A stretch of DNA of 44,446 nucleotides, taken from a virus. Location of the stretch: IMG/VR virus record IMGVR_UViG_3300009481_000023, positions 1 through 44,446 of that record. The stretch is one strand, 5' to 3'. This document shows, piece after piece, positions 1 through 11,068 of this stretch. Numbering within the stretch: the first letter of the stretch is position 1; every line of letters begins with the position of its first letter. Below the pieces are notes generated by a model, which worked only from the letters and a program-made list of their open reading frames with translations, did not search any database and was not told the DNA's origin. A program made the translations under genes and the position numbers.

Positions 1-963
1 ACGCAGATGTTCGATGATGTTGAGGCACACCTAGAGGAGTTAGCAGAGGAGTCGGTCGATCAGATAGGCATATCTACAGGATTCCCTAGATACGATTTTT
101 CAATCGGAGGAGGGTTGAGAAAAGGTACAGTTAATGTTATTGGCGCTAGACCTAAGACTGGGAAAACTTTGCTTGCCGACAATATGGGCATACATATTGC
201 AAAAGAAGGAACTCCAGTATTGAATCTGGACACCGAGATGAGAAAGGAAGACCATCAACACAGGATGATGGCTATGTTGTCTGGTGTTCCAATTAATGAC
301 ATTGAGACTGGAAAGTTTGCTGATGACCCAGCTAAGAAAAAGAAGGTCATGGAAGCAGCAAGAGAAATAAAGGATATTCCGTATTACTTTAAGACTATTG
401 GCGGCGCTTCATTTGAAGAGCAAGTTGCAATAATGAGAAGATGGATTAGTAGGGTTGTAGGATTAAATGATAAGGGTAAGGCAAACGATTGTGTTATTAT
501 ATACGATTACCTTAAACTTATGGACTCAAGTGAAATCAAAGGAGATATGAAAGAATTTCAAATCCTTGGCTTCATGATAACAGCCCTACATAATCTGTCT
601 CTTAAATACGAAGTACCTATACTTACTTTCATCCAATTGAATAGAGATGGCATAACAAAAGAGAGCACTGACACAGCTTCAGGCTCTGATAGAATCATAT
701 GGCTTTGCTCTAACTTCAGTATATATAAACATAAGTCTGATGAAGAGATAGCAAAAGATGGCCCTGAGAATGGAAACAGAAAGCTAGTGCCTCTGATTGC
801 AAGGCATGGAGAAGGGCTTGATTATGGAGACTATATTAACGTAGAACTCACTGGCAAAATCGGTAAGGTTACTGAAGGAAAGACTGCCTTTGAACTTGAT
901 AGTGGCGTAAGTGCTACAGAAGATGGAGAACTTTTTGATGACTCAGAAGATGTCGCATTCTAA
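1..963 (+). CDS. DnaB-type replicative helicase, C-terminal RecA-like domain (5' partial)
   Basis: This encodes the ATPase motor of a hexameric replicative helicase, which unwinds DNA at the phage fork. From the Met at 7, the Walker A loop GARPKTGKT is at residues 46-54, the Walker B strand CVIIYDYLKLMD is at 162-173 (D167), and the FIQLNRD strand that usually follows is present near residue 213. The tail is acidic. The frame is open to the window edge (the codons before the Met at 7 read Thr-Gln), and no DnaB N-terminal domain is visible, so the gene most likely starts upstream. It overlaps the primase gene that follows, the classical helicase-primase pairing. A RadA/KaiC-like RecA-fold ATPase is the main alternative, but the primase neighbour argues for DnaB. 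Confidence 0.85.
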   Translation, partial: TQMFDDVEAHLEELAEESVDQIGISTGFPRYDFSIGGGLRKGTVNVIGARPKTGKTLLADNMGIHIAKEGTPVLNLDTEMRKEDHQHRMMAMLSGVPINDIETGKFADDPAKKKKVMEAAREIKDIPYYFKTIGGASFEEQVAIMRRWISRVVGLNDKGKANDCVIIYDYLKLMDSSEIKGDMKEFQILGFMITALHNLSLKYEVPILTFIQLNRDGITKESTDTASGSDRIIWLCSNFSIYKHKSDEEIAKDGPENGNRKLVPLIARHGEGLDYGDYINVELTGKIGKVTEGKTAFELDSGVSATEDGELFDDSEDVAF

Positions 964-2089
964 AAAATATGATTATGCTAAGGTTAGAACTCTAGCAAAA
1001 ATTGCAGGACAATACATAGACCAAATATATCAATATTTTGGACTTAGTATCTCTTATAGGAATGATATTCTTATGAAGTCTGTATGTCCTATACATGGAG
1101 GAGACAATCCAACCGCTTTGAACTTTTATCCGAACGGAGAGTTTAAGGTACACTATAAATGCAGAACCCATCAATGCGAAGAAGTGTTTGGCAATGGGAT
1201 GATAGATCTAGTCAGAGGGATTCTATCTAGAGTTAATTATGGATGGGAAAAGGAAGGAGATAAGGAGGCTACTTTTAAGGAGTCTGTTGATTTCTTACTC
1301 AAGTTTCTTAAAAAGGACTTTGACTCACTCGAAGCTGATAATCATAATGTAGAAAAACTCCACTTCAACAACTTAGTGAATACGCTTAGCTCTGAAGCTG
1401 CTAAGAAAAGCGGCATAACTCAGCAAATGTATCGAGACCGAGTGGAAGTTCCGTGCAAGTACTATCTAGACAGGGGGTTTTCTGCCAAGATTTTAGAGGA
1501 CTACGACGTTGGCTATTGTACTAATCCAAGAAAGCCTATGTATCAAAGAGCAGTAGTTCCTATTTATGATAATAATCATGAATTTATTGTTGGCTGCACA
1601 GGCAGAAGCATATTTGACAAATGTCCTAAATGCAATAACTATCATGACCCTAAAGAAAAATGTAGACATTTTCCAAAATGGATGCACAGCAAGGGGTTCC
1701 AAAAAGAGAAATGGCTGTATAATTATTGGGTAGCCAAAGATGAGATTGCCAAGACAGGAGTTGCTATCCTTGTTGAGTCTCCCGGAAATGTATGGAGACT
1801 AGCAGAGGCAGGAATACACAACGTCGTTGCTATATTTGGAACAGCGTTCAACAACGATCAGAAAAACTTACTGGATGAGTCTGGCGCTTTATCATTAGTC
1901 TGCTTAATGGATAATGATGATGCTGGGCAAAAAGCAGCCAAGAAGATAGAAGAACAATGTGGAAGATTGTATAGGCTTTACTTCCCAAGTTTTGATGCAG
2001 CAGACATTGCAGAACTAAATGTTGATACGGTCACATCCGACATTAAACCCTTTATTGAAAATGCTATGAATATATATAAGGAAATTTGA
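938..2089 (+). CDS. DnaG-type DNA primase (zinc-binding plus TOPRIM)
   Basis: This primase makes RNA primers for fork replication. Counting from the ATG at 938, a zinc-binding motif C50-x2-H53...C75-x4-C80 matches the CHC2 domain of DnaG. A TOPRIM domain lies at about 1755-1950, with the catalytic Glu in VESPGN and the acidic motif DNDDAGQ. The middle holds a second Cys/His cluster (CPKCNNYHDPKEKC), possibly another metal site inside the polymerase core. At about 383 residues it is shorter than bacterial DnaG and lacks an obvious C-terminal helicase-binding domain. The reading frame also allows GTG at 911 and ATG at 923 or 950. I prefer 938 because GGAG at 925-928 sits nine bases upstream, giving a 26-base overlap with the helicase. 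Confidence 0.88.
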   Translation: MTQKMSHSKKYDYAKVRTLAKIAGQYIDQIYQYFGLSISYRNDILMKSVCPIHGGDNPTALNFYPNGEFKVHYKCRTHQCEEVFGNGMIDLVRGILSRVNYGWEKEGDKEATFKESVDFLLKFLKKDFDSLEADNHNVEKLHFNNLVNTLSSEAAKKSGITQQMYRDRVEVPCKYYLDRGFSAKILEDYDVGYCTNPRKPMYQRAVVPIYDNNHEFIVGCTGRSIFDKCPKCNNYHDPKEKCRHFPKWMHSKGFQKEKWLYNYWVAKDEIAKTGVAILVESPGNVWRLAEAGIHNVVAIFGTAFNNDQKNLLDESGALSLVCLMDNDDAGQKAAKKIEEQCGRLYRLYFPSFDAADIAELNVDTVTSDIKPFIENAMNIYKEI

Positions 2090-2312: not shown

Positions 2313-3089
2313 ATGACTCAAATATTAGGATTTGCCGGCAAGAAGCAAAGTGGTAAAAATACTGCTTGCAACTACATAGTCGCGCTGAAGATAGCTGAAC
2401 TTGGCATTAGTAAGTCTACTAGACTATCTGAAAGAGGAGAGATAGAGGTAACAGATATCTTTGGAGAAAAGAAAGATGGAAAAGAATGGTTTGAATTCAG
2501 TGAAAAGAATCTGAATGTAAAAAAGCTTTTCGATGACAGTCTGGGATCATTTATTAAAATATATGGCCTTGCTGACACACTAAAAGATCTCTGTATAGAC
2601 ATACTTGGCTTAGAGTACGGTCAAGCATACGGAACAGATGAGCAAAAGAACTCTCCTACAGATCTATATTGGGGAGATATACCTTATAGAGATGCAAAAA
2701 ATAATATTAAAAGTAAGAAAATGACAGCTAGAGAGGTCTTACAGTATGTCGGAACAGACATATTTAGGACACTTGATCCAGACATCTGGATAAAAAGCTT
2801 ACTAAGAAAAATCAAGAAAGATAATCCTGAAGTAGCACTAGTCTGCGACGTGAGGTTTGAGAATGAGATTGTCAAGCTTCAAGAAGCAGGTGGATTTATA
2901 GTAGGATTGACTAGAGATCCATATGAAAAATCTGATACTCACTCTAGTGAGAAAGAGATAGAAGGTTGCCTTAACCTTTGTGATGCTGTTGTTGACAATA
3001 AGGATATTACTGTAGCAAAGCAAATAAAAATGATTGGTGATGCTATCAGTCACTTACCCAATGTAGTACCTATAATGGAGCAACAATGA
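2313..3089 (+). CDS. Deoxynucleoside monophosphate kinase
   Basis: This enzyme probably phosphorylates dNMPs to dNDPs, feeding phage DNA synthesis with nucleotides salvaged from host DNA. The N-terminus carries a P-loop, GFAGKKQSGKNT, at residues 6-17. The C-terminal third holds the strand VCDVRFENEIVKLQ followed by a conserved-type TRDPYEKSDTHSSE segment, an arrangement seen in T4 gp1-type dNMP kinases. The 258-residue length is close to that family. The gene lies one base after its upstream neighbour and overlaps the downstream nuclease by four bases, so all are likely on one transcript. Base specificity cannot be read from the sequence. Confidence 0.85.
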   Translation: MTQILGFAGKKQSGKNTACNYIVALKIAELGISKSTRLSERGEIEVTDIFGEKKDGKEWFEFSEKNLNVKKLFDDSLGSFIKIYGLADTLKDLCIDILGLEYGQAYGTDEQKNSPTDLYWGDIPYRDAKNNIKSKKMTAREVLQYVGTDIFRTLDPDIWIKSLLRKIKKDNPEVALVCDVRFENEIVKLQEAGGFIVGLTRDPYEKSDTHSSEKEIEGCLNLCDAVVDNKDITVAKQIKMIGDAISHLPNVVPIMEQQ

Positions 3090-4123
3090 GCATACCTATC
3101 GTATACTTTAGAAGCAGTTCTTTCAACTCTCATAGAATGTGTCCCATGCAATATTACATGGAGTACAACTTAGGCTGGAGGGGCGCTTCTGGAAAGAAAG
3201 CGGATAAAGGAACTATTGTTCATAAGGTTCTTGAGCTGTGCGCCCTTGCAAAGAAAGCGCTGCAGGATGGTCATGCAGTTTTTGAAGATCATGAAATTGG
3301 AGAGATAGAAACTTCTAACTACGACCCAGAATATCTAGATCAAATTATTGATACAGTATATGAATATTACACTTCTAGAACTACACATCATGATTGGAAA
3401 CCTCTAGACTTGAAGCATTGCCGGAAATGGGTCTGGAAAATATTTGATGATGACGATGGCTTTTTTGATCCTAAGAATAGAAATGTTGTGGAAGCTGAGC
3501 CGCACTTTGATTTTGAAATAGAAGAAGACTGGGCCAAGTACGAGTATGAGCTTTCTGATGGAAGTATATTGAAAGGCCATCTAGCACTAAAGGGTACTAT
3601 TGACTTAATCACCGACGTTGGCGATGGAGTCTATGAGATAATTGACTGGAAGACTGGGAGAAGGCTTGACTGGGCTACAGGAAAAGAGAAGACTCATGCT
3701 AAGCTAGAAAAAGACCCTCAGCTTAGAATGTACCATCTAGCTTGTAAGAAGCTATATCCTCATGTAGAAACCTTCTTAGTGACTATTCATTTTATGAATG
3801 ATGGCGGTCCTTTTACTCTACACTTTCAAGATAGCGATATACCTGAGACTTTGGAAATGATAAGGGCTAAGTTTGAAAAAATAAAAGATACTAACATGCC
3901 CGAACTTAGGAAGTCTTGGAAATGCTCAAAGCTGTGTTCTGCTGGCAAGACCACCTATGAAGGCACGCATGTAGATCCGATGTATAATATGTTCGGTGCA
4001 GCTCTTACAAAGTGCGAACAAACAAAAACAATGATAAAGGAAAACGGTATTGAGTGGGTAACAGGGAACTGTATGGCTCCAGATCACACAATAGGCAAGT
4101 ATAAGGCTCCCGGCGAAGTATGA
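3086..4123 (+). CDS. RecB/Cas4-like PD-(D/E)XK exonuclease
   Basis: This is a metal-dependent nuclease of the RecB/AddB/Cas4 group. The visible signature is an N-terminal FRSSSFNSHRMCPMQYYMEY segment, a histidine in GTIVHKVLE (H46), then D173 in GTIDLI and D187-W-K189 in EIIDWKTG, followed by a QLRMYHLA segment corresponding to the usual Q-x3-Y motif. C19 together with a C-terminal Cys-x3-Cys pair (WKCSKLC) and two further Cys residues could form an Fe-S cluster as in Cas4 and AddB; this is inferred from spacing alone. A likely role is end resection for recombination-dependent replication, possibly together with the putative annealing protein at 17199-17957. It overlaps both neighbours by four bases. 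Confidence 0.8.
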   Translation: MSIPIVYFRSSSFNSHRMCPMQYYMEYNLGWRGASGKKADKGTIVHKVLELCALAKKALQDGHAVFEDHEIGEIETSNYDPEYLDQIIDTVYEYYTSRTTHHDWKPLDLKHCRKWVWKIFDDDDGFFDPKNRNVVEAEPHFDFEIEEDWAKYEYELSDGSILKGHLALKGTIDLITDVGDGVYEIIDWKTGRRLDWATGKEKTHAKLEKDPQLRMYHLACKKLYPHVETFLVTIHFMNDGGPFTLHFQDSDIPETLEMIRAKFEKIKDTNMPELRKSWKCSKLCSAGKTTYEGTHVDPMYNMFGAALTKCEQTKTMIKENGIEWVTGNCMAPDHTIGKYKAPGEV

Positions 4124-4665
4124 TAAAACTACCTTTTGATGACGCTATGATAGAGAGAGCTAGAGAGAAGGCAATGTCTCTAGGCTCTATTAATAACTCT
4201 ATACTTAGAGGCGGTGGAAATATAGCCGGCTACTTAGGAGAAGAGGCTTTAGCTCCTTATGTTAACGCAGACATCGTTAGTAACAATAGGGGCTTGGATA
4301 AATACAATCATGACCTTCTTCTAGAATGTGGACATAGACTTGAGGTAAAGACAAAGAGAAGAACAGTCTCTCCGAGACCACATTATGATGTATCAATAGC
4401 CGAAACAAGCAAGCATCAGAAACCAGACCTATATGGCTTTATAAGCTTAGAGTTTGACAGATGCACCAAAAGTCATCCTAAAAAATACTATGGCCTAAAA
4501 AACATATGGTTGTGCGGCTTTATGGGATCTTTTGAGTACTGGGAAAGAGCTTCTCTCTGGGAAAGTGGGAGAATAGATAAAACAAATAGCTTCAAGACTC
4601 ATGTTAACATGTATAATTTACCTATAAGAGAACTATACGATACCATTTGGGAATTGACAAGATGA
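4120..4665 (+). CDS. Second, small PD-(D/E)XK-like nuclease candidate
   Basis: This 181-residue protein has no confident family name but carries a restriction-endonuclease-like signature: G-x2-G-E at residues 37-41 (E41), D65 in YNHDLLLEC, and E75-V-K77 in RLEVKTK. The E...D-x9-E-x-K order is the usual PD-(D/E)XK active site. The rest is an alpha/beta mix with aromatic C-terminal strands. It could cut DNA, for example in host DNA breakdown, Holliday junction resolution or processing of replicative forms, or it could be a catalytically dead relative. It overlaps the upstream RecB-like gene (ATGA) and the polymerase start (ATGA at 4662-4665), so it is translationally coupled to both. Confidence 0.6.
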   Translation: MIKLPFDDAMIERAREKAMSLGSINNSILRGGGNIAGYLGEEALAPYVNADIVSNNRGLDKYNHDLLLECGHRLEVKTKRRTVSPRPHYDVSIAETSKHQKPDLYGFISLEFDRCTKSHPKKYYGLKNIWLCGFMGSFEYWERASLWESGRIDKTNSFKTHVNMYNLPIRELYDTIWELTR

Positions 4666-6539
4666 AATACGTGCCGCTACATGTCCATAGCGAATATTCA
4701 CTTTTAGATGGACTGTCACAAACAAAACATATTGCAAAGAGACTAGAAGAGATAGAAGTTGATGCTTGTGCATTGACAGATCACGGTACGGTAAGCGGAG
4801 CGATTGACTTCCATAAGACCATATCCAACGGCTTCAAGCCAATCCTTGGATGTGAGTTCTATGTCAGCAATAGAGATGCGACGATCAAAGAGCCAGATAA
4901 CTCGAAGCTTGCACACCAAGTTGTTATCGCAAAAGATTTGAAGGGATGGAAGAACCTACTTTCGATGGTATCAATATCCAACAAGGTAGACCACTTTTAT
5001 CATAAGCCTAGAGTTGGCGTCGATTACTTCATGGAGCTTGCATCAAAAGCAGATGGCTCTCTCGTCTCATTCAGTGGTCATCTAGGGTCTCGTCTCGCAA
5101 ACGCTGTGGTAGATAACCCAAACTGGCAAAGTGATGGAATCAGAGAAGCAGAAAGGCTGCAAGACGCATTTGGCAAGGGCAATTTCTATATAGAAATCCA
5201 GTTGATAGACTCTCTTATAAATGAAAAAGCAAAAGAAGTTGCCCAAAAGCTAAGGGAAATTTCTAATCTTACTAAAATTCCTTGTGTAGCAACGCCAGAT
5301 GCGCACTACTGTAGACGTGAAGATGCCCATGACCAGAGAGTGTTACTATGTACATCTATGAGAAAGAGCATCGGACAAGTTCAATCTGAGCTTAAGCAGG
5401 GCAAGTCTCGTTCTCTAGGAACATTCTTTAATTCAAACAACTATCACATTCCTAGCTATGAAGACATGAGAGAGTTCCACACTGAGGAGGAACTACAGCA
5501 CACAATCGACATAGCTAACATGTGTACACAGTACGACATTCTAGGACCTCCAAATCCGCCGGTATTTGCTTGTCCGAACGGTATGTCTCCGAATGATTAT
5601 CTAAGGGAGCTGTGTAGAGAAGGATGGTCTAGCAAGATGAGCCATGTCGAAAAGGGTTCTCTATTTAGTGAGTATGGAGATAGAGTCAATAAAGAAATTA
5701 AAATTTTTACTGAAACTAACCTGTCAAGTTACTTCTTAATTGTTAGGGATATCTTAAAGTATGCTGAGTCAAGAGGATATCTCACAGGGCCGGGAAGAGG
5801 TAGTGCTGCTGGATGTATGGTTTCTTACCTTATGGACATTACAAAGATTGATCCAATGCCGCATGACTTAATCTTTGAAAGATTCTATAATGCTGGACGT
5901 AATGCTGGCGGAAGAGTATCAATGCCTGATATTGATATTGACGTACCTAAACAATCAAGAAATGATATTATAGACTACATCAAGCAAAAGTATGGTGAAG
6001 ACAATGTAGCTCAGATTGTTACATTCCAAACTCTCAAGGGTCGTGCTGCACTAAAAAGAGTTATGGCAGCTAGAGGAAACATTGGTTTTAGTGAGCAGAA
6101 TGCTATAACGTCTCATATTCTAGATGAAGCAAAAATTTCGGATGAGTTACAGGACATGAAGGATGAGCTAGGAACTGCATCTGTGATAACTTGGGCTCTT
6201 GAGAACAAGAAGGACAAACTCAAAGAGTGGTGTTATGTAGATGATAATGGCAATTTGCAAGGTAAGTTTGCTAAGATCTTTGAGCAAGCAATTAGGTTGG
6301 AAGACACGAAGATTATTCAATCTAAGCATGCAGCTGGCGTTGTAGTATCTCCTCAGCCGATATATGATGTTTGCCCAATGGTCATAGACAAAGAGGGAAA
6401 AGGGCAACTAGCAGGCTTTGAAGGACCATCATGCGAAGATGCTGGACTTCTTAAGCTAGACGTTTTGGGAATTAAAATGCTAGATAAGATTATGGAAATG
6501 CCAGAAATTATAAAGAATACTTATAAGGTACAAGTATAA
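4662..6539 (+). CDS. dnaE: DNA polymerase III alpha subunit, N-terminal half (PHP and palm)
   Basis: This is the first part of a C-family replicative polymerase. The PHP domain starts at once (HVHSEYSLLDG, then ALTDHGTVSGAIDF). The palm follows with GPGRGSAAG (5788-5814) and PDIDIDVP (about 5926-5949), which supplies two catalytic Asp residues. The segment LKLDVLG (6451-6471) carries the third, equivalent to D555 of E. coli DnaE. Coding stops about 20 residues later, before the fingers, which are encoded by a separate gene from 7318. At about 625 residues it is half of normal; both halves together (about 1,170) equal a full DnaE (about 1,160 in E. coli). A TTG at 4647 is possible, but the ATGA overlap makes 4662 the better start. 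Confidence 0.9.
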   Translation: MKYVPLHVHSEYSLLDGLSQTKHIAKRLEEIEVDACALTDHGTVSGAIDFHKTISNGFKPILGCEFYVSNRDATIKEPDNSKLAHQVVIAKDLKGWKNLLSMVSISNKVDHFYHKPRVGVDYFMELASKADGSLVSFSGHLGSRLANAVVDNPNWQSDGIREAERLQDAFGKGNFYIEIQLIDSLINEKAKEVAQKLREISNLTKIPCVATPDAHYCRREDAHDQRVLLCTSMRKSIGQVQSELKQGKSRSLGTFFNSNNYHIPSYEDMREFHTEEELQHTIDIANMCTQYDILGPPNPPVFACPNGMSPNDYLRELCREGWSSKMSHVEKGSLFSEYGDRVNKEIKIFTETNLSSYFLIVRDILKYAESRGYLTGPGRGSAAGCMVSYLMDITKIDPMPHDLIFERFYNAGRNAGGRVSMPDIDIDVPKQSRNDIIDYIKQKYGEDNVAQIVTFQTLKGRAALKRVMAARGNIGFSEQNAITSHILDEAKISDELQDMKDELGTASVITWALENKKDKLKEWCYVDDNGNLQGKFAKIFEQAIRLEDTKIIQSKHAAGVVVSPQPIYDVCPMVIDKEGKGQLAGFEGPSCEDAGLLKLDVLGIKMLDKIMEMPEIIKNTYKVQV

Positions 6540-6540
6540 T

Positions 6541-6657
6541 ATGGTAGTATGGAAATACTGTGAAGTTTGTGGTAAAGTTGTAGATGAGTATCAAAAACGA
6601 TGCTCTGAATGTAGCGCTGAAATAGATTGGGAAGAAAAAGAAGATGATAAACAATAG
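6541..6657 (+). CDS. 38-residue zinc-ribbon microprotein
   Basis: This tiny frame begins one base after the stop of the polymerase N-terminal half and overlaps the exonuclease gene by 14 bases. It encodes a protein with two Cys pairs, YCEVCGK and RCSECSA, 11 residues apart, a textbook zinc-ribbon knuckle arrangement, followed by an acidic tail (DWEEKEDD). AAGGT about ten bases upstream could act as ribosome-binding site. The tight fit between two real genes and the paired Cys motif support it being expressed. It may help join or stabilise the split polymerase, or be a remnant of a zinc-binding domain; both are inference. Confidence 0.65.
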   Translation: MVVWKYCEVCGKVVDEYQKRCSECSAEIDWEEKEDDKQ

Positions 6658-7321
6658 ATGGATTATAGTGTTTGACCTAGAAACCGATGGGACTGATCCG
6701 TATAGTTGTAATCCTGTTGAGCTTGCGGCTGTCCCTGTTGATCCCAGAACATTAGAGATCAAAGAGGCACAGGCTTTTAGGGTCACAATCAAGCCAGACG
6801 GTATTGATGACGAGGAGTACTTTACAAAGGCTCGTCAAGACACAATCGCTTGGCATGCTAAAACAAGAGGTGTTGAATCGGAAGACATCATAGAGGATTG
6901 GAAGAATGGGCAGACTGAGAAAGTTGCTTGGAAGAACTTTATGTCTTATTGTTCTAAGTATGAGGTAGATAAGAGGCCGGGACAATGGTACACTGAACCT
7001 ATCCCTGCTGGATACAATATCATTGGCTTTGATCTACCTATTCTAAAAAGGTTATCAGAAAAACACAAGACTAAGATGCCTCTATCCACAGTCACAAAAA
7101 TTGATATGATGGATATTCTTTTTACTTGGTTTGAAAATCTAGATGAGCCCAACAGTATGAAGCTTGATACTTTTAGGGACTTCTTTGGATTAAAGGCAAG
7201 TGCTCAAGCACACGAAGCTCTATCAGATACAATTGACGAAGCTAAACTGATGGTTAAGTTTTTAAAGTTTCATAGAAAACAAGCAAGTGTAAGTAAATTT
7301 AAAGGTGCGTTTAGCAAATGA
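6644..7321 (+). CDS. DnaQ-type DEDDh 3'-5' exonuclease (putative proofreading subunit)
   Basis: This exonuclease of the DnaQ/RNase T fold probably removes mismatched 3' ends during replication, as epsilon does for polymerase III. All motifs are present: Exo I FDLET (D11, E13), Exo II YNIIGFDLPIL (N125, D130), and Exo III H190-x4-D195 in AHEALSDTIDEAKLM. At 225 residues it matches the epsilon catalytic domain plus a short basic tail. The gene lies between the two polymerase halves, overlapping the zinc-ribbon gene upstream and, through ATGA, the fingers gene downstream. That suggests coupled translation and co-assembly. A separate role such as trimming host DNA is possible but the location argues for proofreading. 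Confidence 0.88.
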   Translation: MINNRWIIVFDLETDGTDPYSCNPVELAAVPVDPRTLEIKEAQAFRVTIKPDGIDDEEYFTKARQDTIAWHAKTRGVESEDIIEDWKNGQTEKVAWKNFMSYCSKYEVDKRPGQWYTEPIPAGYNIIGFDLPILKRLSEKHKTKMPLSTVTKIDMMDILFTWFENLDEPNSMKLDTFRDFFGLKASAQAHEALSDTIDEAKLMVKFLKFHRKQASVSKFKGAFSK

Positions 7322-8955
7322 TAAATCTAGATTGCGGATGTCAGTTTGAACAAGACGATGAAGGTAGGATTATCTTCGGCACTGACATAACAAAAATGAA
7401 TATGGACTGCCCTAAAACTTGGGACTTAATATGCGAAGGAAATACGAAAGGTGTCTTTCAGCTTGAGTCTCAGCTTGGAAGATCTCTAGCAAAGCAAGCT
7501 AAACCAAGAAACATCGAAGAGCTGTCAGACCTAATCGCTATTATGCGTCCGGGATGTCTTGAGGCTGTAGTCAAAGGAAAGACTCTTACGATGCACTATA
7601 TCGACAGGAAGCACAAGGTTGACGCTGTCGAGTACTTCCATGAAGCTTTAGAGCCGATTCTTAAGAGCACTTACGGCATTCTTGTCTTCCAAGAACAAGC
7701 TATTCTTATTGCACAGCAAATAGCTGGCTTTGACTTGCAGGAAGCTGATATCCTTCGTAAGGCAATCGGTAAGAAGAAGGCTAGTGTCATGGCAGAAGTC
7801 AAGAAGTCTTTCATAGAAAAGTCTGAGGCAAAAGGTATTGTCACTAGAGAGGAAGCTGAGGAGATATTCTCTTGGATTGAAAAGTCTCAAAGATATTCTT
7901 TTAATAAATCTCATTCTGTCAGCTATGCCTATAATGCATATCTCACAGCATATGCTAAAGCTCACTTCCCACATGAATTCTTTACTTCTTACCTAAAGCA
8001 TGCAGTTGGAAAGCCAGACACATTTATTGAAGTTCAAGAACTTGTTAACAACGCAAAGATAATGGGCATCAACACAATGCCTCCTAGTATTATTCACATG
8101 AATGAAGAGTTCGAGCTTATTGAACAACATCCAAGATATGGTCTTACAAACGTAAAAGGAGTGGGTTCATCTGTATTTAAAAAGATGGTGAATTACATGG
8201 AGACTGAGGGAATAGATCCTAAAGCCTGCGACTGGTCTTGCTTTTTGATCTTAGTATCCCCCAAGGTTAATAAGAAGGCCTTTGAGAGCCTCATACTAGC
8301 CGGAGCGTTCGATTGTTTTAAAATTCCTAGATCTAAGATGCAGCATAATTTTAATGTAATTAAAGAGTTTAGCAAGAGGGAGATCTCTTGGTTAATTGAT
8401 TATAAAAAACAGAACTACGAGCTGAGCACAGAGCAATGTATACAGGCTATGATAGATGCATCTCAAGGCAAAGATAAGAATAGACCAATCTTTAGAAGAG
8501 ACAGATGTCCTATCGTTGAAGACTTGCTTCGATCATACAATGATCCCGGATATGAACTATTTGATTCTGCGTCTTGGCTTGCGAAACAAGAACAAGAACT
8601 GCTTGGTATAGCTTTAACATGCAACAAAGTAGATGAGTACAATACAGATAGGGCTAACTGCACCTGTAAGGAGTTTATTGACGGCTTCGAAAGTCAGTAT
8701 GGCCCTGTGATAGCAGTCCAGATAGAATCTGTAAGAGAATGGAAGATCAAGAAAGGGAAGGCCAAAGGCAAGAGTATGGGGTTCATAACAGCTGGTGATA
8801 CTAGCTGTATCCTAGACAACATTACTGCCTTCTCTGATGAATGGGAAAAGTATAAGAACTTGCTCTACGAAGGCAACACTGTTCTTCTAAGAGGAAGCAG
8901 AGACAAAAATAGAGGAAGTTTTTTGGTAAAAAGAGTTGAACAGCTAACAAGTTAG
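7318..8955 (+). CDS. dnaE: DNA polymerase III alpha subunit, C-terminal half (fingers, HhH, OB)
   Basis: This is the second half of the C-family polymerase. It starts in the linker after the palm and runs into GVFQLES, the fingers segment YIDRKH, EPILKSTYGILVFQEQ, and RYSFNKSHSVSYAY, all hallmarks of DnaE fingers. A helix-hairpin-helix region (YGLTNVKGVGSSVFKKM) follows, then an OB-like C-terminal domain (about residues 465-540). The gene has its own ATG in an ATGA overlap with the exonuclease. No intein Cys or His-Asn junction is visible at either end, so the halves probably associate non-covalently. The novel N-terminal 35 residues (INLDCGCQFEQDDEG...) have no counterpart I recognise in E. 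coli DnaE and may be an association segment. Confidence 0.9.
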   Translation: MINLDCGCQFEQDDEGRIIFGTDITKMNMDCPKTWDLICEGNTKGVFQLESQLGRSLAKQAKPRNIEELSDLIAIMRPGCLEAVVKGKTLTMHYIDRKHKVDAVEYFHEALEPILKSTYGILVFQEQAILIAQQIAGFDLQEADILRKAIGKKKASVMAEVKKSFIEKSEAKGIVTREEAEEIFSWIEKSQRYSFNKSHSVSYAYNAYLTAYAKAHFPHEFFTSYLKHAVGKPDTFIEVQELVNNAKIMGINTMPPSIIHMNEEFELIEQHPRYGLTNVKGVGSSVFKKMVNYMETEGIDPKACDWSCFLILVSPKVNKKAFESLILAGAFDCFKIPRSKMQHNFNVIKEFSKREISWLIDYKKQNYELSTEQCIQAMIDASQGKDKNRPIFRRDRCPIVEDLLRSYNDPGYELFDSASWLAKQEQELLGIALTCNKVDEYNTDRANCTCKEFIDGFESQYGPVIAVQIESVREWKIKKGKAKGKSMGFITAGDTSCILDNITAFSDEWEKYKNLLYEGNTVLLRGSRDKNRGSFLVKRVEQLTS

Positions 8956-8982
8956 TTTGAAAAGGACGATATAATATATTAT

Positions 8983-9429
8983 ATGGATGATTTAATAGAA
9001 AAGAACATGGGACTTGTTGTCTCTGTTGTGAACTCTTTCAATCCTAAGAGTAACACAGAGAAGGAAGATTATATACAAGCTGGCAGGATAGGACTTTGGA
9101 AAGCTCTAGAAAAGCATGATCCAGAGAAATCAGCTCTGTCTACCTTTGCTTGGAATCCGATACGATGGGAAATAATCAAGGAAATAAAAGCGATTAAATC
9201 TAATAGATATTTTTCTATCTCAGATGAAAAAACTCCTTACTATATTACTAAGGATACCCTTTGGGAACATTGTCCTGACAGCCTTTCTGTAGAGGAATCT
9301 GAGCTAATAGATCTTAGGAAAATGGGATATACTCTACAAGAAATAGCTGACATATTGGGTAGAGGAAGATCCTATGTTAAAAGAGTCGTATATCGTGCTA
9401 TACAAAAGATAAGAGAGTGTAATGAGTAA
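8983..9429 (+). CDS. Phage sigma-70-like factor
   Basis: This small sigma factor likely redirects host RNA polymerase to phage promoters. The N-terminal half resembles region 2: YIQAGRIGLWKALEKHDPEK followed by the aromatic STFAWNPIRWEII segment, which in sigma factors binds the core and melts the -10 element. The C-terminal part (about residues 105-145) is a region-4-type helix-turn-helix: MGYTLQEIADILGRGRSYVKRVVYRAIQ. At 148 residues it is shorter than host sigmas and similar in scale to compact ECF or T4 gp55-type factors. It sits after the replication genes, which would suit a switch to the tail genes on the other strand. The start has only a weak AAAGGA 16 bases upstream. Confidence 0.82.
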   Translation: MDDLIEKNMGLVVSVVNSFNPKSNTEKEDYIQAGRIGLWKALEKHDPEKSALSTFAWNPIRWEIIKEIKAIKSNRYFSISDEKTPYYITKDTLWEHCPDSLSVEESELIDLRKMGYTLQEIADILGRGRSYVKRVVYRAIQKIRECNE

Positions 9430-11068
9430 GAAAAGAGTATTATTTGTTAGTGAGTCTCATCACTTGGCATCTGGGTTTGGAACATATGCTAAGCAGGTTC
9501 TACCCAGACTAGCAGCGACCAATAAATATCATCTTGCTGAATTCGCGTCCTACGGAGATATTAATAGAATAGGGGACGTTCCTTGGGACTACTACAGCAA
9601 CACCCCAATCACAGAAGAAGAAAAGAATCTATATAATAGCCAGCAAGCAAATGCGTTTGGCATATGGAGATTCAATAGAGTAGTGTTGGACTTTAAGCCT
9701 GACATCGTTCTAACCTATAGAGATCCTTGGATGGACGAGTGGATAAAAGAGTCTCCTCTAAGAAAGTACTTCCATTGGCTATGGATGCCTACTGTTGACT
9801 CTTACCCCCAGAAGAGAAAATGGCTAGAGACATTCAAGTCGTGCGATGCTGTACTAGCATACTCGGAGTTTGGGGAAAAAGTGCTAGACAGGCAATCTGG
9901 AGGAACGATTAATACAATAGGTTGTGCCTCTCCAGCGATAGATCCAAAAGTCTACAAGCCCGTACAAGACAAGAAGAAGCATAAGTCGTCGTATGGACTT
10001 CCTGAAGATTGCTTTATAACTGGCACAGTTATGAGAAATCAGACGCGGAAACTCTTCATAGAGCTTATGAAATCTTTTAGAATGTTTCTAGACAATGCTC
10101 CGAAAGAGATAGCAGAGAAATCATTTTTATATCTGCACACAAGCTATCCAGAAAAGGGCGGCTGGGATATAGAAGATGGAATAATGAGCAATGGACTTTC
10201 TAATAATGTCCTTTGCACGTATGTTTGCAGGGGATGTTCTCACTGGGAGCCGTCTAGATATAAAGGTCCAGTGAAAAAATGTAGCAAATGCGGACAAAGA
10301 AATGCATTCATGCCCAATGTTGGTCACGGGATAAGCATAGAGGAGCTCATAAATGTATACAATTTATTTGACCTATATGTACAGTATGCTATCTGTGAAG
10401 GGTTTGGTATGCCACAAGTGGAGGCAGCTTGCTGCGGAGTCCCTGTAGCAGCTGTTGACTACAGCGCTATGGAAGACGTTGTGAGACATACTAATGGATA
10501 TCCTATAAGAATTAAAAAGATGTTTAGGGAGCTCAATACTAACGCAGAGAGAGCTTATCCAGACAACGAGCACTTGGCAGAGATATTACAACATCATTTT
10601 TCTCATGATGACAACTATAGAAAAGAGAGGTCTTCTCAGGCTAGGGAAGGAGCAATGAGAAGATATGACTGGGATGCAACAGCTAAAGTATGGGAAAATT
10701 ATATAGACTCTTATAAGCCTATAGCAGAGCAAGGAAAGTGGGATCTGCCTATAGAGCAGTCAGATATTCCTGATCAAATTCCTCAAGGAATGTCTTACGA
10801 ACACTTTGTAAAATGGTGCTTTGCAGAGCTAATAAGAAGCCCAGAAAGAGTTAACTCATATGATGCACAAAAATACCTTGCTAGCCTAGACTTTGGATGC
10901 TTTATAGATGGATCATATGGGCCTCAATTAGAACCATTCAATGTTGATATTATGTTTAATATATTCAAGACAAGAGCTCAAGACAAAAATATACTAGAAC
11001 AGCTGAGGACAGGTGTCTTGGAAGCTGCCCCAATGACATTCTTGAAAAAAGGAAGAATGGATGATTAA
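9422..11068 (+). CDS. GT4-type glycosyltransferase with inserted zinc ribbon
   Basis: This GT-B fold retaining glycosyltransferase would move a sugar from a nucleotide donor to an unknown acceptor. The N-terminal half opens with VLFVSESHHLASGFGTYAKQV, a glycine-rich loop typical of group 1 transferases. The C-terminal half carries the E-x7-E motif (E326 to E334 in EGFGMPQVEAACCGVPV) that binds the donor. An unusual insertion holds two Cys pairs, C269-x2-C272 and C287-x2-C290, probably a zinc ribbon. A C-terminal extension of about 120 residues is unassigned. It overlaps the sigma gene by 8 bases and heads an eight-gene glycan cassette. Targets could be virion proteins, phage DNA or the host surface; the sequence does not say which. 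Confidence 0.85.
   Translation: MSKKRVLFVSESHHLASGFGTYAKQVLPRLAATNKYHLAEFASYGDINRIGDVPWDYYSNTPITEEEKNLYNSQQANAFGIWRFNRVVLDFKPDIVLTYRDPWMDEWIKESPLRKYFHWLWMPTVDSYPQKRKWLETFKSCDAVLAYSEFGEKVLDRQSGGTINTIGCASPAIDPKVYKPVQDKKKHKSSYGLPEDCFITGTVMRNQTRKLFIELMKSFRMFLDNAPKEIAEKSFLYLHTSYPEKGGWDIEDGIMSNGLSNNVLCTYVCRGCSHWEPSRYKGPVKKCSKCGQRNAFMPNVGHGISIEELINVYNLFDLYVQYAICEGFGMPQVEAACCGVPVAAVDYSAMEDVVRHTNGYPIRIKKMFRELNTNAERAYPDNEHLAEILQHHFSHDDNYRKERSSQAREGAMRRYDWDATAKVWENYIDSYKPIAEQGKWDLPIEQSDIPDQIPQGMSYEHFVKWCFAELIRSPERVNSYDAQKYLASLDFGCFIDGSYGPQLEPFNVDIMFNIFKTRAQDKNILEQLRTGVLEAAPMTFLKKGRMDD

Follow-up and report, generated by a model that had tools for sequence, protein, structure and literature searches.

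A phage DNA polymerase III alpha subunit encoded by two genes, with a putative proofreading exonuclease gene in the break

In cyanobacteria, DnaE is encoded by two genes and its product is rejoined by protein trans-splicing through a split intein. Phage polymerases in two pieces have been described as well. The split family B polymerase of Aeromonas phage 25 consists of gp43A and gp43B, which co-purify and are active, and the break in such T4-related polymerases is associated with a seg endonuclease in phage 25 and with an untranslated spacer in 44RR (PMC2988022). In the OM43 phages MEP401 and MEP402, and in most of their group, PolA lies in two open reading frames (ORFs) with a small ORF between them; the authors suggest an intron, and the exonuclease domain is found in the first ORF (PMC10580990). 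Here, we describe a locus in the IMG/VR virus record IMGVR_UViG_3300009481_000023, a stretch of 44,446 bases (the window) from a tailed phage (a tape-measure gene is present), where a DnaE-type (family C) DNA polymerase III (Pol III) alpha subunit is encoded as two ORFs, polN and polC, separated by an exonuclease gene (Table 1). From the sequence evidence set out below, we consider it probable that polN, polC and an epsilon-like exonuclease form an obligate, non-covalent three-subunit replicase.

The two ORFs together hold every domain of a DnaE polymerase. PolN matches the Pfam families of the PHP domain (PF02811, E 6e-32) and the Pol3 palm (PF07733, E 7e-69), polC those of the fingers (PF17657, E 8e-46) and the HhH domain HhH_6 (PF14579, E 4e-11), and the order PHP, PF07733, PF17657, PF14579, OB is that of the DnaE type, spread over two ORFs. 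In phmmer comparisons both halves tile Taq Pol III alpha (polN 5–641, polC from 644) without loss, so that no part of the alpha core is missing, and the sole surplus is the 22-residue head of polC. The sum of 1,170 residues bears out the preliminary description of this DNA, made from the sequence alone, which had counted about 1,170 residues and equated them with a full DnaE. It had also correctly seen the first gene end soon after LKLDVLG, as polN stops about 25 residues past the third catalytic Asp (D600) in this motif. Its placement of the break between palm and fingers is right only roughly, since the break lies just within the start of the finger-domain profile; in unbroken DnaE the same connection runs on from palm to fingers, e.g. 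LKMDFLGLRNLTVLDDAVKMVQQREPEFALSKIPDDDAETYDMISRGQTAGVFQIES in locus L061. Bacterial DnaE proteins (Taq, 2hpi/3e0d; E. coli, 2hnh/5fku; M. tuberculosis, 7pu7) share domain order, catalytic residues and folds with polN and polC, but here there are two chains, polC stops right after the OB fold, and the usual position of the clamp motif is not conserved. The GPGRGSAAG motif and the catalytic Asp triad of the DnaE type are present, whereas its single chain is not; with two chains where the DnaE type has one, the locus is a split variant of the family and not a typical member.

Between the halves lie, as initially described, a zinc-ribbon microgene and a DEDDh exonuclease. The exonuclease matches PF00929 (E 1e-8), and its best PHROG match is 'DNA polymerase exonuclease subunit' (E 2e-14); the zinc-ribbon ORF reaches E 3e-4 against Pfam DZR, which is under the curated cut-off of that family. 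Of the ATGA or short overlaps claimed throughout, three are found (upstream gene/polN, ATGA; zinc ribbon/exonuclease, 14 nucleotides; exonuclease/polC, ATGA), while polN and the zinc ribbon are separated by a 1-nucleotide spacer.

Table 1. Positions of the split polymerase locus and its neighbours in the window.
Feature	Position	Strand	Remarks
polN	4662-6539	+	625 residues; N-terminal half, PHP and palm/thumb
polC	7318-8955	+	545 residues; C-terminal half: 22-residue head, fingers, HhH, OB fold
DEDDh (DnaQ-like) 3'-5' exonuclease, putative epsilon	6644-7321	+	225 residues
Zinc-ribbon microgene	6541-6657	+	38 residues, CxxC...CxxC; accessory, in some relatives only
ATGA overlap	7318-7321	+	exonuclease stop/polC start
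Upstream gene	4120-4665	+	181 residues; conserved neighbour; ATGA overlap with polN; no Pfam or PHROG match
Sigma-70-type factor	8983-9429	+	directly downstream of polC; neighbour kept in nearer relatives
DnaB-like helicase	7-963		left-part replication operon
Primase	911-2089		left-part replication operon
dNMP kinase	2313-3089		left-part replication operon
PD-(D/E)XK exonuclease	3086-4123		left-part replication operon

As one metagenomic contig, the window could in principle imitate a split gene through an assembly or sequencing artefact such as a frameshift or a misjoin. We scanned IMG/VR with proteins and family alignments and, in one further scan, bacterial and archaeal genomes; the collection scans give the best 80 loci, and the clade may extend beyond these to more distant ones. 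The search for related phages of the same gene order that had been proposed yielded the order polN, exonuclease, polC with the same break in 158 distinct contigs (94, then 64 more) at 37–100% identity; among the first 94, the 75 with complete genes form 60 clusters when grouped at 90% identity and 25 when grouped at 70%. Such repetition is due neither to chance nor to error, and the probability of an artefact is negligible. No unbroken dnaE of the clade occurs among the loci fetched from these scans, and such unbroken DnaE proteins as were found come from bacteria or unrelated phages and share at most 36% identity over polN. Neither of the outcomes named beforehand as fatal to the split, a single joined frame or unbroken relatives beside a copy with lost catalytic residues, appeared among the assembled relatives. 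In 50,697 annotated phage records, a search that may omit records very near the window, queries from the window, L108, L200 and L211 found no clade member, and the exonuclease query gave one weak match only (25% identity). In trees, a branch with an SH-aLRT of 100 sets the split clade, which has a long stem, apart from the other sequences, and the simplest reading of these sequences is that the fission is older than the radiation of the clade. Host labels are those of metagenome bins and may be wrong; contigs with the split locus also occur in bins with the labels SAR202, Bacteroidota and Lokiarchaeota, the last including L207 and L208 (JABXKB010000027, JABXKB010000087), which are probably viral contigs.

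Both halves and the exonuclease are under strong purifying selection. D423, D425, D427, D600 and the tested palm-motif residues are invariant in 56 polN sequences, and the DEDDh site (D11, E13, D130, H190, D195) is invariant in 60 of 60 exonucleases. The PHP metal ligands of the window's polN read HHDHEHHDH, and the active signature is found in 47 of the 56 sequences; HHDHEH[C/H]DH is the published signature of an active PHP proofreading exonuclease (PMC12926913). Compared with the close relatives L002, L003 and L006, nonsynonymous divergence (dN) of polN, exonuclease and polC is 0.02–0.04, with synonymous sites near saturation, and the ratio to synonymous divergence (dS), where calculable, is about 0.015. 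Together with the clade-wide break and the lack of an unbroken clade relative, this upholds the earlier view of fission, not decay, and of retained key motifs; the 158 relatives and dN/dS rule out assembly error and frameshift decay. Furthermore, each half modelled alone by AlphaFold gives a confident fold (polN, pLDDT 90.6 and pTM 0.88; polC, pLDDT 92.4 and pTM 0.85), and the best matches of both in the PDB are Pol III alpha.

One could still suppose that one half is a non-catalytic leftover, or that both are separate regulators, and that a host polymerase copies the phage. A SAR202-binned genome does hold an intact dnaE-like gene in addition to the split locus. We nevertheless regard this as improbable given the invariant catalytic residues and the strong purifying selection on all three genes; moreover, the phage encodes its own DnaB-like helicase and primase, and 14 viral records of 61–187 kb, possibly incomplete, carry exactly one palm and one finger domain each, with no PolA or PolB found in them.

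Alternatively, an intron or intein could interrupt the gene, with RNA or protein splicing restoring one alpha chain and the ORFs in the gap being passengers. Interruptions of phage dnaE do exist. Bacillus phage G provides a precedent, as its gp329 contains an intein and the pieces of its polymerase are separated by a homing-endonuclease gene (locus L289, 239245-250008: gp329 with PHP, the start of the palm and Hint/intein, gp330 homing endonuclease, gp331 a palm piece, gp339 fingers onward), and in one distant member of the clade polN is host to a LAGLIDADG ORF. At the present locus, no Rfam family matched window positions 4000-9500 at E<=1, nor did an Rfam intron match any of 11 further loci, of which nine belong to the clade; a group I/II intron is rejected on these grounds. 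Like the cyanobacterial split-intein DnaE, the polymerase comes from two genes, but the intein signature is absent: neither polN nor polC has a Hint/intein match, and the ends (about 25 residues after LDVLG, and the 22-residue head) are too short for intein halves, so that an intein or trans-splicing is rejected as well. Moreover, polC has its own start codon, which overlaps the exonuclease stop, and content and length of the gap vary freely between relatives. Restoration of a single chain by splicing is thus very improbable.

Breaks in dnaE have occurred elsewhere among phages. In Rossellomorea phage phiT1 (PV767480; gp20/gp19/gp18), dnaE is likewise broken at this palm/fingers position and a 49-residue ORF lies in the gap, but unlike in the clade the gap lacks an exonuclease and there is no CGC head; for this split, both an origin shared with the clade and an independent one are compatible with the approximately unbiased (AU) test (p 0.33). 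In Bacillus phage Jayan, which is nested among phages with intact dnaE, the break lies in the palm, in Microbacterium phage Hiddenleaf between PHP and palm, and Alicyclobacillus phage MMB025 has an endonuclease ORF at a break within the fingers. A stretch of about 3.8 kb without an annotated coding sequence in Cellulophaga phage phiST (L293, 37097-47987) has two long frames (526 and 677 codons) in different reading frames, the second starting just before PDIDTD, and is another interrupted or frameshifted dnaE.

What fills the gap in the clade differs widely, except for the exonuclease. The distance from polN to the exonuclease ranges from -14 to more than 1800 nucleotides and that from the exonuclease to polC from -20 to 3885. 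Only some relatives (the window's group, L088, L089 and L103) have a zinc ribbon in the first interval; other subclades have unrelated ORFs of 60–80 residues there, L187 and similar loci have UDG-family genes, and elsewhere the interval is empty. In the second interval, L074 has a cytidylyltransferase-like gene, and in L100 and L179 other genes extend over several kb. Sporadic endonuclease-type genes comprise an endonuclease VII-like gene in the exonuclease-polC gap of L211 and LAGLIDADG within polN of L212. The three- or four-subunit enzyme of the preliminary description is thus reduced to three constant parts; the zinc ribbon, kept by few relatives and replaced by other small ORFs or nothing elsewhere, is rejected as a fourth core subunit. 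These contents fit a start from a homing element that was later lost, which we regard as a candidate origin.

In one large subclade (L106, L108, L113 and sisters), a conserved 60-residue protein with a VSCC or ITCC motif occupies the polN-exonuclease gap; one representative, when tested, had no Pfam match. The zinc-ribbon ORF has a dS of about 0.3 against L003 and L006, far under the 2 or more of polN and polC; this value, from about 36 codons, is weak and hints at local exchange or constraint. In L212 (1942-4940), a contig binned as alphaproteobacterial, polN is cut a second time, at the catalytic PDIDID, and the LAGLIDADG ORF lies inside the insert. In about seven relatives (L114, L118, L188, L189, L192, L209, L108), polN starts with M..YVPLHVHS, meets, within about its first 20 codons, a stop codon and an insert of 8–12 nucleotides, and then resumes the PHP domain (HYSLLDGL); the stretch around CACGTCCATTCCTAA is near-identical in most of them, and sister sequences lack the interruption. 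Inserts of 8 and 10 nucleotides exclude simple read-through; re-initiation, ribosome bypassing or a homing scar are possible.

The variety of guests bears on the role of the exonuclease, which might be no proofreader and lie in the gap only because this site takes up genes. Unrelated genes have indeed been accepted there in number (UDG, cytidylyltransferase-like, endonuclease VII-like and small ORFs), and the intact PHP metal site could proofread alone. The other genes come and go, but the exonuclease is the only one present in every clade member, always between polN and polC; its active site is invariant, and its best PHROG match is to a polymerase subunit. A DnaQ-like gene also adjoins dnaE in Pbunavirus KPP12 and Wifcevirus ECML-117, though dnaE is intact in both. 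An exonuclease without a part in proofreading therefore seems unlikely.

We thus propose a two-chain polymerase with a separate proofreader, for which assembly, polymerase activity, proofreading and stoichiometry are inferred. An ancient fission would have cut the alpha chain in the loop that begins the fingers. PolN (PHP-palm) and polC (fingers-HhH-OB) would be made separately and reassociate non-covalently through the palm-fingers interface; an enzyme held in this way is the simplest reading, with gp43A and gp43B of Aeromonas phage 25 as a direct precedent. The catalytic triad comes wholly from polN and the fingers, which touch the incoming nucleotide in known DnaE structures, from polC. The exonuclease would act as an epsilon-like proofreader, translationally coupled with polC through the ATGA overlap, and the PHP domain of polN, with its full set of metal ligands, may also proofread. 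Exonuclease and polC overlap in 74 of 94 contigs, by exactly 4 nucleotides (ATGA or GTGA) in 42, which suggests such coupling. The conserved C-terminal tail of the exonuclease (KFKGAF and variants, KFKxAF-type) is a candidate binding element. Likewise, the CGC...C motif of the polC head is conserved (55/61 and 60/61 sequences); its loss in some members means that it cannot be essential everywhere.

Several points weigh against this proposal. No consensus beta-clamp motif is found between HhH and OB at the DnaE position, RPIFR being present in near relatives only. The halves can be widely separated, the exonuclease-polC gap reaching 3.9 kb among the relatives, and tight coupling is thus not universal. 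The pairwise distances of polN, exonuclease and polC agree (r 0.94–0.95), which is expected for any co-inherited genes and hence speaks for co-inheritance only. Finally, the exonuclease could work elsewhere, e.g. in DNA degradation or recombination. A doubtful extension of the three-subunit replicase is a functional link between the fission and the constant exonuclease, the latter being installed co-translationally with the fingers half at or near the palm-fingers joint, perhaps via the CGC...C head or the KFKxAF tail.

Compared with the systems described before, gp43A/43B of Aeromonas phages 25 and 44RR likewise provide a replicative polymerase as two polypeptides, but of family B, and for their gap a separate exonuclease gene, as in the split-DnaE clade, is not described. 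The marine phages MEP401 and MEP402 likewise have a polymerase in two ORFs, theirs being of family A. PolC-type enzymes also link polymerase and DEDDh exonuclease genetically, but as a single chain with the exonuclease inside PHP and the OB fold N-terminal; here the exonuclease is separate, OB is C-terminal, and both halves are far closer to DnaE than to PolC. The comparison with PolC drawn at first is therefore sound as an analogy only, with a different exonuclease site and without an evolutionary link. Split phage polymerases (T4-like PolB, OM43-phage PolA) and other phage dnaE breaks were already known. New is the combination of a family C polymerase with a break that lacks a recognisable intein or intron, is fixed throughout a large old clade and always contains the exonuclease gene. 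We found no split phage DnaE in the literature, where subscription papers and preprints were mostly outside coverage, and the literature and annotated phage genomes searched gave no description of a C-family replicase that is split throughout a clade and without an intein.

Regarding the surroundings, the sigma factor and the replication operon are followed directly by a gene of a glycosyltransferase family (Glycos_transf_1, E 2e-9) at 9422-11068.

In summary, if the split polymerase is real as an enzyme, Pol III alpha would be able to work as two chains, its natural break point could be used for an engineered split Pol III, and a large lineage of uncultured phages would gain a deep marker. 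It also becomes testable what lies behind the repeated breaks in phage polymerases of families A, B and C, and whether a homing element began this one. Should the functional link between break and exonuclease be true as well, the replicase would have an architecture distinct within the C family, with a module of proofreader and fingers docking onto a PHP-palm module.

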